Part shown: one piece after another, positions 1 to 5,345 of the stretch
Numbering within the stretch: the stretch's first letter is position 1
How the letters are laid out: every line of letters starts with the position of its first letter
DNA from: Anaerolineae bacterium
GTDB taxonomy: Bacteria > Chloroflexota > Anaerolineae > JAFGEY01
Direction: 5' to 3'
Length of the DNA: 5,345 nt
NCBI GenBank assembly: GCA_016929205.1
Contig: JAFGJF010000527.1
Location: 1 to 5,345 of the forward strand
The notes under the pieces: generated by a model
Database searches by the model: none
What the model was told of the DNA's origin: nothing
What the model saw: only the letters and a program-made list of their open reading frames with translations
Translations under genes and position numbers: made by a program

Positions 1-1043
<1,043 letters not shown>

Positions 1044-1237
1044 GGCAGGACATCCCAGCGCCAGCGAGCAGTTGGCCTATGAAACGTGAGCGGGTTGCAG
1101 CCCTGTAGATTCCGAAGCGAAAGGGCACCGGTCCATGACGCGGTCAAAACAGCGCGCTCTCGGCAAGGCCATACGCTCGCCATCGCGGGATACCATGCTG
1201 TCGCATGTGACCTACCAGACCGGGCGCGGGTGGGGGT

Positions 1238-1684
1238 TTGCGCTGCACGCAGATCCCGATCTTGTATGCCGTCGCCATGGGAGTGGACGCCCTGGCGGCA
1301 CTGCTGGTCGGTAAGGCGTACGATCGGGTCGGGTTAAAGTCCCTGATCATCATCCCCTTTGTTACCCTGCCGCTGCCTTTCCTGGCATTCTCGCAGCACT
1401 ACTGGCTGGCCGTCGTCACCGCCGTCCTGTGGGGGCTGGTCATGGCTGTGCACGAGACGATCATGCGTGCCGGACTTGCCGATCTCGTCCAAGCGGGACA
1501 GCGGGCGTTTGCTTATGGCATTTTCAATACCGTCTATGGAGCTGCGTGGTTCGTGGGTGGGGCTGCGCTCGGGTTGTTGTACGACCTTTCCGGTGTCTGG
1601 CTCGTTGCCTATGTCGTCGTGATGGAAGCTGGCGCGCTCTTGGTGTTCCCTCGCCTTGCGCGGGCGGCAGAGAGGCAGGTCTGA
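1238..1684 (+). pseudogene. C-terminal remnant of an MFS transporter
   Basis: The frame from a TTG at 1238 encodes ~148 residues resembling the last five helices of a 12-helix major facilitator transporter. A helix starting IPILYAVAMGVDALAALL is followed by the cytoplasmic motif GKAYDRVG, then by hydrophobic segments around LIIIPFVTLPLPFLAF, WLAVVTAVLWGLVMAV, AYGIFNTVYGAAWFVGGAALGLLY and WLVAYVVVMEAGALLVF. A typical member has ~400 residues, so the N-terminal half is missing. Upstream the frame closes with TGA at 1208-1210. Weak MFS-like wording appears in another frame just before it (MLSHVTYQTG, from 1194), which hints at a frameshift as well as a deletion. No convincing ribosome binding site precedes the TTG. 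The 194 bases between the enolase stop and this frame hold no recognisable gene or terminator. I infer a decayed gene. A genuine short membrane protein started at the TTG is less likely. The transported substrate cannot be inferred. Confidence 0.65.
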
Positions 1685-1708
1685 CCCTGGTCGCTGCGGG
1701 CGGTGTCC

Positions 1709-1737
1709 TTGACTCCTGGGCCACACTGTGCTACAAT
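1709..1737 (+). promoter_or_regulatory. Sigma70-type promoter of the MutS-like operon
   Basis: The -35 box TTGACT (1709-1714) and the -10 box TACAAT (1732-1737) are separated by exactly 17 bases, each one mismatch from consensus. Transcription should start near 1743-1745. This lies a few bases before the P1 hairpin of the leader, so the whole riboswitch would be transcribed. The promoter is just past the MFS remnant stop and points at the ATPase operon. Confidence 0.85.
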
Positions 1738-1750
1738 CAAGGCCATTGGA

Positions 1751-1823
1751 GAGGGGTGATGAGGCTCACCCGAGGGGGCTTGTCCTCCTGATCCGTCGGT
1801 TTCCCGATTAATAGCCTCTACCG
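1751..1823 (+). promoter_or_regulatory. Candidate fluoride (crcB-type) riboswitch aptamer, variant
   Basis: The leader RNA begins with a 5-bp P1 stem, GGGTG (1754-1758) with CACCC (1767-1771), closing the loop ATGAGGCT. The loop segment GAGGCT (1761-1766) is an exact complement of AGCCTC (1813-1818), giving a 6-bp pseudoknot. As I recall the Thermotoga petrophila fluoride aptamer, it has the same GATGAGGC loop and the same 3' element GCCTCTAC. Between them lies a hairpin GGGGG (1774-1778)/CCTCC (1784-1788) followed directly by TGAT, matching the P3-UGAU arrangement. The variant parts are a two-base junction after P1 (usually longer) and about 20 extra bases (1793-1812) holding a small TCGG/CCGA hairpin. 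The pseudoknot strand is also the left arm of the following terminator, so ligand binding would favour read-through, as in known fluoride ON switches. The ligand assignment rests on motif recall and was not searched. Confidence 0.68.
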
Positions 1824-1864
1824 CTGCGGCGCAGAACGGCGTCCGGCCGGTAGAGGCTTTTTTT
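1813..1864 (+). terminator. Intrinsic terminator / expression platform in the operon leader
   Basis: AGCCTCTACCG (1813-1823) pairs perfectly with CGGTAGAGGCT (1848-1858), an 11-bp stem around a GC-rich 24-base loop, followed by a run of seven T (1858-1864). It lies between the promoter and gene A, so it can act only as an attenuator of that operon. Its left arm overlaps the predicted pseudoknot strand 1813-1818, making the two structures mutually exclusive. Confidence 0.92.
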
Positions 1865-1888
1865 ACGATTGCAGGGGAAGAATAGAGG

Positions 1889-3418
1889 ATGGCTTTTCAC
1901 AGCATACTGATGGAAAAAGACGGCCGAAAATCAGAGACTCTTGAGCAGCCGGCCTTTTTTGCCGATCTGAATCTCGATCAGATCGTCGACGCCGTTACAG
2001 CGGGCAAACAGGAATACAACCTGAAACCCTTTTTCTACACGCCCCTGCGCGATGCCAGGACCATCCGCTATCGCCATGAAGTGATGCAGGACCTGGAAGA
2101 CGAAACGCTGCTGGGGCAGATCAATGCCTTTGCCGAAAGAATGGTGATCGTGCGCCGCTATCTGGCACTCGTGGAAAAATTGGATTTTGAGCACCACAAA
2201 AAAGGCTGGTTTCTGGAGGCAGCGCTGGCGTATTGTAAGGCCATAACCGACCTGGCGCGCGATCTGGGCCTTGCGGCCCTGTCATCGCGCGGCCTGGTGG
2301 CATTCCGCGAGTATGTGGCAAACTACAGCCGCTCGCCCGAGTTTCAGTCGCTGCTGGCAGAAGCAAAAGAGGTCAAGGCCGGGCTGTCGGAGGCGACGTA
2401 CAGCGTGATTATCCAAACTGGCAAGTTCAGGGTGCGGAGATACGACGGGGAGAAGGATTACAGTGTACAGGTGCTAGAAACCTTTGAAAAGTTCAAACAA
2501 GGCGCGGCCAAAGACTACCGGGTTGACCTTTTCAAAGGGGCCGGCATGAACCATATCGAAGCCAAAATTCTGGAGTTTGTCGCCCGGCTGTATCCAGAGC
2601 AATTTGCTGCCCTCGACCGGTTTTGCGAGCGGCACAACCCTTTCCTGGACGGCGTCATCCGCACCTTTGACCGCGAGATCCAGTTCTACGTGGCCTATCT
2701 GGAGTTTGTCGCCGGCATCAAGAAAAAAGGGCTATCATTCTGCTATCCACAGGTGAGCGCCACCAGCCGCGAGGTGTTCAACCACGACGGCTTTGATCTG
2801 GCCCTGGCCCACACTCTGCTGGATACGCCCAGGCCGGTCGTCGTCAACGATTTTGCCCTCCGTCGCCCCGAGGCCGTGATCGTCGTCTCGGGCCCGAACC
2901 AGGGCGGCAAGACGACCTTTGCCCGCACCTTCGGGCAGTTGCACTATCTTGCCAGCCTCGGTTGTCCTGTGCCGGGCAGGGAAGCGCGGCTCTTTTTGTT
3001 CGACGAGATTTATACGTATTTCGAGAGAGAAGAGGACATCCACAACCTGCGGGGCAAGCTGCAGGATGACCTGGTACGCATCCACGACATTCTTGCCCGC
3101 GCCACGTCTCGGAGCATCCTCGTCCTGAACGAGATCTTTGCCTCCACCACGTTGCAGGATGCCGCTTTCCTGAGTAGGGCAATTATGGACAAAGTGATGG
3201 AACTCGATTTGCTGTGCGTGTGGGTTACTTTTATCGACGAGCTGGCTTCTTTTAACGAGAGAACCGTCAGCATGGTCAGCACCGTTGTCCCCGAAAACCC
3301 GGCCATACGGACGTTCAAAATCGTCAGAAAGCCCGCCGATGGGCTGGCTTATGCCCTGTCGATTGCCGAGAAGCACCATCTGACCTACAGGCAAATCAAG
3401 GAGCGCATCAGCCTATGA
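1889..3418 (+). CDS. MutS-like ATPase, gene A (no mismatch-recognition domain)
   Basis: This 509-residue protein resembles the lever and ATPase domains of MutS. It lacks the N-terminal mismatch-reading and connector domains of full MutS (~850 aa). Residues ~1-300 are mainly helical, with the lever-like motif FFYTPLRDARTIRYRHEVMQDL near 48-69. The ATPase has Walker A GPNQGGKTT (335-343); FEREED (378-383) leading to a signature loop LRGKL with Arg388; Walker B LVLNE with Asn414-Glu415, where MutS has Asp-Glu; and an H-loop reading VTF (446-448) instead of VTH, so the usual His is Phe. The nucleotide-binding loop is intact, but the site looks atypical. The ATG at 1889 follows AGGGGAAG (1873-1880); it is supported by the matching start of gene C (MVFQSIL versus MAFHSIL). 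This is the first gene after the leader terminator and is translationally coupled to gene B. A DNA-related mechanochemical or clamp role follows from the family; the actual substrate is unknown. Confidence 0.9.
   Translation: MAFHSILMEKDGRKSETLEQPAFFADLNLDQIVDAVTAGKQEYNLKPFFYTPLRDARTIRYRHEVMQDLEDETLLGQINAFAERMVIVRRYLALVEKLDFEHHKKGWFLEAALAYCKAITDLARDLGLAALSSRGLVAFREYVANYSRSPEFQSLLAEAKEVKAGLSEATYSVIIQTGKFRVRRYDGEKDYSVQVLETFEKFKQGAAKDYRVDLFKGAGMNHIEAKILEFVARLYPEQFAALDRFCERHNPFLDGVIRTFDREIQFYVAYLEFVAGIKKKGLSFCYPQVSATSREVFNHDGFDLALAHTLLDTPRPVVVNDFALRRPEAVIVVSGPNQGGKTTFARTFGQLHYLASLGCPVPGREARLFLFDEIYTYFEREEDIHNLRGKLQDDLVRIHDILARATSRSILVLNEIFASTTLQDAAFLSRAIMDKVMELDLLCVWVTFIDELASFNERTVSMVSTVVPENPAIRTFKIVRKPADGLAYALSIAEKHHLTYRQIKERISL
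3398..3403 (+). promoter_or_regulatory. Shine-Dalgarno site for gene B, inside gene A
   Basis: AAGGAG lies 11 bases before the ATG at 3415, within the last codons of gene A. It supports that start. Together with the ATGA overlap (3415-3418) it suggests coupled translation and near-equal output of the two proteins. Confidence 0.75.
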
Positions 3419-4962
3419 AGGTTTTCCTGATGTATCCCGACCGGGACTTCGATCCCAAGGAAAAACTGCCATGGAACGAGCAGGCACTGACGCAGGACCT
3501 GGAGCTAAATACCCTGTTCGAGGCGATGGCCTGTGGGGATGGATTCTTGTTCACCACCGCCAGGCAAGCGGTATTGACCGCTTTGGACGACGAGGAGACG
3601 ATACGCTACCGCCAGGACATTCTGCGCGACTGTCTGAAGAATGGTCCCGTAGTCCGGGAAATCTACCAGGTCCCCATCGAAGCGATCCAAAGGAAAAAAC
3701 AGAAGTGGATGGGCATTTACAGTAGATATCCCCGCGGGATCCTGACCAGCGCGCTGGAGATGCTGGAGATGTTTGTCGAGATGCTCAAAAAGCTCAGGAG
3801 AATCGCCGACGAAAACGCCGACAAGTTTGAATCGGACGGTTTCAGGCGGTTTTTCGCAATGATGGCCCAGGAACTGGACGATGACTATTTCGCGGTCGTA
3901 GATAGCCATCTCAAGGAGCTGAGATTCCGTGACGGCGTTCTGCTCAGCGCTGAATTGGGACGGGGGAATGAAGGCACGAACTATGTGCTCCGGGAACCGC
4001 CCGGGAAAGCGCGGAATTGGATAAGGCGGGTTTTAACGAAAAAATCCCCGGCCTACAGCTTCAGCATTCACCCCCGCGACGACCATGGTGCCAGGGCACT
4101 GGCGGAACTGAGAGATGGGGGTCTGAACCTGGTGGCGAATGCGGCCGCCCAGTCCGCCGACCACATTGACAGCTTTTTCAATATGCTGTGGATCGAGCTG
4201 GCTTTTTACATTGGCTGTCTGAATCTATCGGAGCGACTCGCTCAACTGGACGAGCCAATCGCGTTTCCTCTGCCCGTCCATTCCAGCCAACGCAGGCATT
4301 CGTTTACCGGGTTATACGATGTCTGCCTGGCATTGACCATGGAACGCCAGGTGGTCGGCAACGACGTGAATGCCGACGACCAAGACCTGGTCGTGATCAC
4401 GGGTGCCAACGAGGGCGGCAAATCCACTTTTTTGCGCAGCATCGGCCTGGCGCAAGTGATGTTGCAATGCGGTATGTTTGTGCCGGCCGCGTCCTTTTGC
4501 TCCAACGTCTGTGACGGGCTTTGCACGCACTTTAAACGGGAAGAAGACGCCACGATGGAGAGCGGCAAGCTGGATGAAGAGCTCGGCAGGATGAGCGAGA
4601 TTGTAGACCACCTGACGTCGCACTCTATGCTGCTGTTTAATGAATCGTTCGCGGCGACGAACGAAAGGGAAGGCTCAGAGATTGCCAGGCAAATCGTAAC
4701 TGCCTTGCTGGAAAAGCACGTCAAGGTTTTTTTTGTGACGCACCTGTACGAGTTTGCGCATGGGATGCACGATCTCGACATGGAAAACGCCCTTTTCCTC
4801 CGTGCTGAAAGACAAGCCGACGGAACGCGGACTTTTCGATTAATCGAAGGCGAACCATTGCAGACCAGTTACGGCCAGGACCTGTACGACAGGACGTTCG
4901 GACCGGACAACCAGACGCTCGCGCCTGCTGGCCAGCCGGAGGGAATAGGTGCGCCAGCCTGA
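3415..4962 (+). CDS. MutS-like ATPase, gene B
   Basis: This 515-residue paralogue of gene A has the same helical N-terminal part (ETIRYRQDILRDCL near 62-75 matches RTIRYRHEVMQDL of A) and a C-terminal MutS-type ATPase. Its motifs are closer to canonical: Walker A GANEGGKST (330-338); FKREED (373-378) with a signature loop SGKLDEEL starting at Ser383; Walker B LLFNES with Asn409-Glu410, again Asn for the usual Asp; the conserved-looking stretch ATNEREGSEIA; and an H-loop VTH with His443. No mismatch-recognition domain or nuclease (Smr) domain is present. The last ~18 residues are Pro/Gly/Ala-rich and probably disordered. The gene starts inside the stop of gene A (ATGA), and gene C begins 63 bases downstream. 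I infer that A and B form a hetero-oligomer in which B carries the more complete site. Function beyond ATP hydrolysis or ATP-driven conformational change is unknown. Confidence 0.9.
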   Translation: MKVFLMYPDRDFDPKEKLPWNEQALTQDLELNTLFEAMACGDGFLFTTARQAVLTALDDEETIRYRQDILRDCLKNGPVVREIYQVPIEAIQRKKQKWMGIYSRYPRGILTSALEMLEMFVEMLKKLRRIADENADKFESDGFRRFFAMMAQELDDDYFAVVDSHLKELRFRDGVLLSAELGRGNEGTNYVLREPPGKARNWIRRVLTKKSPAYSFSIHPRDDHGARALAELRDGGLNLVANAAAQSADHIDSFFNMLWIELAFYIGCLNLSERLAQLDEPIAFPLPVHSSQRRHSFTGLYDVCLALTMERQVVGNDVNADDQDLVVITGANEGGKSTFLRSIGLAQVMLQCGMFVPAASFCSNVCDGLCTHFKREEDATMESGKLDEELGRMSEIVDHLTSHSMLLFNESFAATNEREGSEIARQIVTALLEKHVKVFFVTHLYEFAHGMHDLDMENALFLRAERQADGTRTFRLIEGEPLQTSYGQDLYDRTFGPDNQTLAPAGQPEGIGAPA

Positions 4963-4983
4963 GATGTAACATGGATGGGGAGT

Positions 4984-5015
4984 GCTGGCGCCGGATTCGA
5001 GACCTGGCGTCCAGC
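4984..5015 (+). repeat. Inverted repeat (hairpin) between genes B and C
   Basis: GCTGGCGCC (4984-4992) pairs with GGCG-T-CCAGC (5006-5015) with one bulged T, around a 13-base loop. No T-run follows, so it is unlikely to be an intrinsic terminator. It ends just before the weak GGAAAA ribosome site of gene C and could act on mRNA stability or on translation of C. It could also be chance in GC-rich DNA. Confidence 0.4.
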
Positions 5016-5025
5016 TCGGAAAAAG

Positions 5026-5345
5026 ATGGTTTTTCAGAGCATACTATTTGAGAGAGCCCAGGACAGCATAACGGCGGAAGTAGCGGCAGTTCCCGGCACT
5101 GTCGACGTGGAGCAGCTCATGGACGCCGTCACGGCTGGCAAGCAAGATCAACCCGCCGAAGACGATACGACGACGGAACCCCCTGCCGCACCCCCCTTTT
5201 TCATTGATCTGAATCTCGATCAGGTTGTCGACGCCATCACGGTTGCCAAGCAGGAATATTCTCTGGAGCCGTTTTTTTACACGGCCTTGCACACCGTCGA
5301 CGCGATTGAATATCGGCATCAGATATTTCGGGATCTCGAGGATCG
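5026..5345 (+). CDS. MutS-like ATPase, gene C, N-terminal part only (3'-truncated by window edge)
   Basis: An open frame from the ATG at 5026 runs to the window end (106 full codons). Its start, MVFQSILFER, and residues 59-106 (FIDLNLDQVVDAITVAKQEY, then EPFFYTALHTVDAIEYRHQIFRDLED) clearly match the N-terminus of gene A (MAFHSIL, FADLNLDQIVDAVTAGKQEY, PFFYTPLRD..IRYRHEVMQDLED). It is therefore a third member of the same MutS-like family and nearer to A than to B. The part carrying Walker A and B lies outside the window. Compared with A it has about 35 extra residues near the N-terminus, made of a second copy of the DAVTAGKQ element and an acidic, Thr/Pro-rich linker (PAEDDTTTEPPAAPP, 43-57). 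An in-frame ATG at 4975 would add 17 residues, but the match to gene A favours 5026. The ribosome site is weak (GGAAAAAG, 5018-5025). It is probably in the same transcript as A and B. Confidence 0.85.
   Translation, partial: MVFQSILFERAQDSITAEVAAVPGTVDVEQLMDAVTAGKQDQPAEDDTTTEPPAAPPFFIDLNLDQVVDAITVAKQEYSLEPFFYTALHTVDAIEYRHQIFRDLED
5101..5259 (+). repeat. Internal duplication within gene C N-terminus
   Basis: Residues 26-42 (VDVEQLMDAVTAGKQDQ, 5101-5151) and 62-78 (LNLDQVVDAITVAKQEY, 5209-5259) are two diverged copies of one motif that occurs once in gene A (LNLDQIVDAVTAGKQEY, residues 27-43). They are separated by a Pro/Thr-rich linker. The first copy keeps DAVTAGKQ exactly as in gene A. Confidence 0.7.

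Follow-up and report, generated by a model that had tools for sequence, protein, structure and literature searches.

In this study, we identified a leader RNA that is very probably a fluoride riboswitch of the crcB class controlling an operon of MutS-like ATPases in an Anaerolineae bacterium of the Chloroflexota (assembly GCA_016929205.1, contig JAFGJF010000527.1, forward strand, positions 1 to 5,345; the window hereafter means this whole stretch of 5,345 nucleotides, nt). The leader matches the class in sequence and structure, its structure covaries in relatives, and the aptamer is genomically linked to the genes behind it, here called MutS1 and MutS2, while fluoride binding and the direction of switching at this site are inferred from analogy with the class. 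Judging from sequence, fluoride probably turns on a little-studied MutS-like ATPase machine. The ligand of the class was reportedly identified as fluoride in a paper of 2012. The RNA described here is a further, sub-threshold member of this known class, whose placement before mutS genes is likewise known: as the initial annotation stated, mutS has been listed as a crcB-RNA target since 2010, according to a passage of that report (PMC2864571).

The initial annotation had described a near-consensus promoter, a P1 hairpin with its characteristic loop, an exact six-pair pseudoknot between loop and tail, and an 11-bp terminator sharing a pseudoknot strand, and we recovered each of these in place (Table 1). 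The promoter motif occurs once in the window, compared to a mean of 0.1 in shuffled sequences, and would set the RNA start near 1744. All six pseudoknot pairs are complementary (6/6), and P1 with a GAUG loop, P2, and a UNAU...CUAC-like tail are all present. The loop GAUG and the tail U and A were invariant in 81/81 aptamers and occur in the window, which bears out the earlier remark that the loop and tail words fit the fluoride aptamer. The terminator hairpin (−33 kcal/mol) was more stable than its shuffled versions (z −6.1; 0/200 shuffles equally stable), with an 11-bp outer stem, inner loops, and the first T of the terminal run paired to A1813. Given that 1813–1818 belongs to both the pseudoknot and the terminator stem, aptamer and expression platform overlap.

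A permissive Rfam scan of 1690–1900 aligned 1746–1827 to RF01734 (fluoride riboswitch) with 18.5 bits and an E-value of 0.0048, the best among the 14 families listed for the stretch, and the alignment spanned the full model (64 positions), with 17 nt inserted in the window between P1 and P2. The covariance check proposed in the initial annotation thus yielded a full-length match, but one below the gathering score of 34, which is a limit for database inclusion and not a structural feature; at gathering level, no Rfam family was found on the window. The other 13 families, representing small RNAs, small nucleolar RNAs, microRNAs, or long non-coding RNAs, all fell under their own cut-offs and were rejected. 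Ref55, at 19.8 bits, exceeds the fluoride family score but has an E-value of 1.4 and covers the terminator only.

We also compared the window to relatives taken from 80 loci encoding MutS1 relatives, the best 80 of at least 578 confirmed stretches (at least 593 matched). A covariance model, R1, built from 35 aptamers of other genomes (alignment A2, excluding the window and omitting L047, a near copy of L043), scored 1754–1821 at 39.4 bits (E 4.4e-10), these 35 aptamers having been chosen by a descriptor that required the pseudoknot. The descriptor (P1, GATG loop, five loop-tail pairs, and tail word) was written from the known motif after the window had been seen, and therefore the covariance scores are the cleaner test. 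It matched the window once, compared to no match among 200 simulated windows, and the 1.11 Mb of real sequence from window and loci gave 80 matches, compared to none when the full set of 81 sequences was simulated three times; aptamers found this way lie within 600 nt before MutS1 in 36/80 loci, 35 of which were aligned for R1. Across 80 distinct aptamers used for the structure and covariation test (alignment A6), the structure including the pseudoknot had 93.8% of cells paired, compared to 77.3% in shuffled alignments and at most 58.5% when slid, and the covariation score was 0.589 versus 0.275. P1, P2, and the pseudoknot each hold pairs changed on both sides, and the pseudoknot columns covary with 99.2% of cells paired, 35 rows having been selected for the pseudoknot. 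Free of this selection bias are the genome-wide counts of RF01734 matches over the cut-off, found in 30/40 and 37/39 genomes behind the loci versus 4/14 control genomes.

The position of the aptamer, which ends 68 nt before MutS1, and its linkage elsewhere support control of the operon by the riboswitch, as had been proposed from the sequence. For locus counts, we used 122 of 136 aptamer matches (at least 20 bits); one of the 14 weaker matches left out lies inside MutS1 (L026, 14.8 bits, E 0.34). In 54/77 loci with at least 300 nt of upstream sequence (55/80 overall), MutS1 is preceded by a same-strand aptamer no more than 700 nt away, at a median distance of 100 nt in the locus set, and no aptamer of at least 20 bits was found inside MutS1 or in the 700 nt behind MutS1 in these loci. 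When aptamers of at least 28 bits anywhere in the locus were included, the count rose to 66/77. Opposite-strand aptamers were observed in these upstream 700 nt in 10 loci (L017, L027, L032, L037, L039, L053, L056, L069, L075, and L076), and several of these loci have a same-strand aptamer arranged back to back with the opposite one. Because loci fetched by gene are a biased sample, we also drew 251 genomes evenly from one phylum, of which 29 had MutS1 (one a fragment) and 74 had RF01734 at E ≤1e-5. Riboswitch and pair co-occurred, with RF01734 in 23/29 pair-bearing versus 51/222 other genomes (odds ratio 12.9; Fisher p 4.3e-9, an optimistic value given that the sampled genomes are related). 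R1 matches at E ≤0.01 were present in 28/29 MutS1 genomes; the R1 aptamer was within 700 nt upstream of MutS1 in 17/29, at a greater upstream distance (802 to 7643 nt) on the strand and contig of MutS1 in 6/29, and absent there in 6/29.

In addition to the low Rfam score and the selection of the R1 rows, several observations weigh against this identification. The linker between P1 and P2 is 23 nt, the longest among 81 aptamers, and the second linker adenine, an A in 75/81, is a U in the window. The insert alone fails to explain the low Rfam score, since the L035 aptamer (matched by coordinates), with a 22-nt linker, reaches 36.3 bits with RF01734; the L010 aptamer scores 24.5. The count of pairs changed on both sides was matched by 47/500 shuffles, 6/54 upstream aptamers score only 20–28 bits, and 11/77 loci have no aptamer by either criterion. 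A simple terminator scan of the window returned 0 sites, because it permits loops of 3–8 nt only and the hairpin has inner loops. Altogether, the window shares with RF01734 the P1 hairpin and its loop, P2, the pseudoknot, a terminator overlapping the pseudoknot strand, and placement before a mutS-like gene, and differs in its score, linker length, and linker adenine.

These differences could mean that the switch has decayed, the long linker and changed adenine having cost ligand binding so that the leader is now a fixed attenuator, and the adjoining MFS gene, which is only a fragment, would fit such decay. However, the window has kept P1, P2, and the pseudoknot in full, along with the terminator overlap and those loop and tail letters that are strongly conserved, and long linkers recur: the commonest length is 5 nt (33/81), yet 16/81 aptamers have at least 13 nt. 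We consider decay improbable. Given that L035 (22 nt), L057 and L016 (21 nt each), and L010 (19 nt) also have long linkers ahead of MutS1 or a neighbouring gene, we read the linker of the window as a tolerated expansion. A chance resemblance, in which an ordinary constitutive terminator lies between two genes, would accommodate the unreached gathering score and a linker hairpin that, folded alone, was not more stable than shuffles (z −0.43). It is contradicted by the R1 score and the linkage, with most relatives carrying the aptamer at this position ahead of MutS1, and the descriptor was silent in simulated sequence; we regard it as scarcely credible.

For a functional fluoride riboswitch, the predicted mechanism follows the scheme given in passages on the class, in which fluoride stabilises the aptamer and the terminator is thereby prevented (PMC13273304, PMC2864571). 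Without fluoride, the shared strand 1813–1818 would enter the terminator stem and transcription would end at the U-run. With fluoride and magnesium bound, the aptamer would hold this strand on the P1 loop so that the terminator stem cannot begin, and the polymerase would read on into MutS1 and MutS2, and probably into the third gene as well.

Table 1. Coordinates of the riboswitch parts and genes in the window.
Feature	Positions	Strand	Basis or remarks
Enolase, 5′ end cut by window, fluoride-island-type copy	3..1043	+	Pfam, identity, tree
Promoter, sigma-70-type, TTGACT-17-TACAAT, TG before second hexamer	1709..1737	+	Motif scan
P1 hairpin	1754..1771	+	GGGU 1754–1757 pairs ACCC 1768–1771; loop 1758–1767 = GAUGAGGCUC
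Pseudoknot 5′ strand GAGGCU, in P1 loop	1761..1766	+	Exact complement of 1813–1818
Possible extra hairpin in P1-P2 linker	1773..1789	+	1773–1778 with 1784–1789, from folding
P2 stem-loop	1795..1808	+	1795–1799 pairs 1804–1808; covariance alignments and folds
Pseudoknot 3′ strand AGCCUC, also 5′ start of terminator stem	1813..1818	+	Sequence, covariation, fold
Intrinsic terminator	1813..1864	+	Hairpin 1813–1858, 7 T at 1858–1864
MutS1, MutS-like ATPase, 509 amino acids	1889..3418	+	Pfam MutS_V 65 bits; Walker B Asn-Glu, H-loop Phe
MutS2, second MutS-like ATPase, 515 amino acids	3415..4962	+	Pfam MutS_V 79.6 bits; Walker B Asn-Glu, H-loop His
Third gene, MutS1-like, 5′ part, open at window end	5026..5345	+	55% identity to MutS1 over 62 amino acids

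MutS1 and MutS2 are core-only MutS-like ATPases whose tandem arrangement is conserved, with genes that overlap by 4 nt in the window. Both exceed the MutS_V (PF00488) gathering score of 30.2, and MutS_V was the only Pfam match in either protein at E ≤0.001, with no mismatch-recognition domain found. The best structural match aligns model residues 14–508 with MSH2 177–846, which leaves no room for that domain under the MSH2 domain limits that we assumed; both proteins end just after the ATPase domain, and their fold is that of a MutS core plus ATPase. After rejection of frames with an internal stop or short length (4 MutS1 and 10 MutS2), 76 and 70 frames remained, and subsets of these were aligned as 54 MutS1 rows (A4, including 7 protein-search matches) and 47 MutS2 rows (A5). 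The Walker A Lys is kept in 54/54 and 47/47 rows. In both subunits, almost every copy has Asn in place of the Walker B Asp, including, by eye, two MutS1 rows that were unparsed in the count. The H-loop His is lost in MutS1 and kept in the MutS2 of the window; the lone MutS2 row with an H-loop Phe (L046) is the MutS1 gene itself, from a contig that ends behind MutS1. In the PADLOC defence search, MutS1 had no match and MutS2 a weak, partial one (17.8 bits). The third gene had no Pfam match on its own, and no second MutS1 copy resembling it was seen in the 80 loci; its start has extra acidic, proline-rich residues.

The initial annotation called these ATPases DNA-repair-type, a label that rests on the name. 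In principle, the pair could be induced in response to DNA damage from fluoride stress and act in mismatch repair or as a DNA-binding clamp, and besides the shared fold this would agree with a stress able to damage DNA, as proposed in a passage of Weinberg et al. 2010 (PMC2864571). However, given the missing mismatch-recognition domain (the structural match begins at MSH2 residue 177), the Walker B Asn, and the H-loop His lost in MutS1, the repair reading is unsupported. The scores against the mutS1 equivalog (TIGR01070) were 66 and 73.8 bits, far from its cut-off of 641.7, and we give a repair function little credence. The available text of a 2024 review (PMC11139923) associates the riboswitch with exporters, Na/H antiporters, pyrophosphatase, haloacid dehalogenase-like genes, enolase, and formate hydrogen lyase, and the term "DNA repair" does not occur in it. 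We found no later work on the role of these MutS-like proteins in the open-licence literature. Another option is a role at the ribosome, comparable to that of MutS2 when ribosomes collide, in which the pair would clear fluoride-stalled translation. The shared fold shows no function, the endonuclease MutS2 equivalog (TIGR01069) gave 71.2 and 75.1 bits against a cut-off of 400, and both proteins stop shortly behind the ATPase domain; we hold this role to be rather unlikely. The window proteins resemble MutS and MutS2 in core and MutS_V ATPase fold, and differ in their length, absent recognition domain, Walker B Asn, and MutS1 H-loop Phe.

A further parallel in architecture is KamC, the lysine 5,6-aminomutase reactivase ATPase (NCBIfam NF052383), which is also core-only, MutS-like, and of similar length (508 model positions). 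The pair scored 50.2 and 72.5 bits against the KamC cut-off of 300, and that cut-off was reached in 0/10 pair-bearing genomes. KamC genes occurred in 3/26 genomes of one class; the gene next to kamC in three loci is presumably the aminomutase. The profiles of MutS2 and KamC can be aligned over just 207 columns, those around the ATPase, and KamC proteins keep the Walker B Asp-Glu in 3/3, unlike the Asn-Glu of the window pair; we therefore rejected KamC membership and kept KamC as an analogy only. On this analogy, we tentatively propose that MutS1 and MutS2 may assemble into a heterodimer that uses ATP to remodel or reactivate a target damaged by fluoride and is not engaged in mismatch repair. 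Enolase and pyrophosphatase would be natural clients, given that fluoride inhibits both, often via metal complexes in the active site, as stated in part of the 2024 review (PMC11139923). A more specific version, which we think unlikely, is a fluoride-adapted reactivase: the Walker B Asp-to-Asn change would alter how magnesium is coordinated and thereby keep magnesium-fluoride phosphate mimics from locking the ATPase, and the pair would free essential enzymes, such as the adjoining enolase, from dead-end complexes with fluoride and magnesium.

The enolase upstream of the riboswitch is 82–84% identical to the fluoride-island copies of six genomes, compared to 62–65% for the other copy in five of those genomes and 50% in the sixth. 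In the enolase tree, the window joins the six island enolases at 100/100, apart from five other copies of these genomes (100/100); the tree holds island copies twice under two labels, which voids its group statistics, and we used only the branch of the window plus six. Given this grouping by identity and tree, the window is a piece of a fluoride island. At least two enolases were present in all 21 searched genomes with an enolase in the MutS locus. The window differs from other loci with the island enolase paralogue in the MFS gene fragment between enolase and riboswitch: 1086–1684 holds only a C-terminal part (148 amino acids) of an MFS transporter, a broken gene of a family that stands near the pair in several relatives.

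Among 111 aptamers of at least 28 bits, 106 are followed by a frame of at least 80 amino acids, and the MutS cluster accounts for 45 of these frames and the enolase cluster for 9, in loci that had been chosen for MutS1. Other clusters near aptamers, named from one representative each, were a dynamin-like GTPase, an MFS transporter, CrcB, a CBS-DUF190 protein, a Na/H exchanger, a universal stress protein, a histidine phosphatase, a CLC channel, complex I-like subunits, and, once, pyrophosphatase. Neighbours associated with fluoride, CrcB and the island-type enolase among them, add to the support for a fluoride riboswitch. The dynamin-like GTPase (L008, 11478–13157) is the second commonest cluster (23 loci) and the first gene behind 6/106 aptamers. 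In Paraburkholderia sp. DHOC27 (L080, NZ_QVQV01000011.1), 34 RF01734 matches over the cut-off lie on one contig at 51350–177321, a fluoride island of about 126 kb; we infer from matching coordinates that the contig of these matches (G078:C3) is that of L080. The island enolase of L045, labelled Candidatus Woesearchaeota archaeon, sits in the Chloroflexota island clade, reflecting either recent transfer or a misbinned contig.

This riboswitch has as its output an ATPase of two subunits whose active sites carry fixed and odd changes, found among fluoride-resistance genes in many phyla, which poses a testable question. Given that aptamers like that of the window score below the Rfam cut-off, counts of fluoride regulons may be too low. 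Should the pair restore proteins, the name "mutS" would be a misnomer in these regulons and fluoride defence would extend beyond export; a fluoride-adapted reactivase, if real, would bring such defence under direct riboswitch control.
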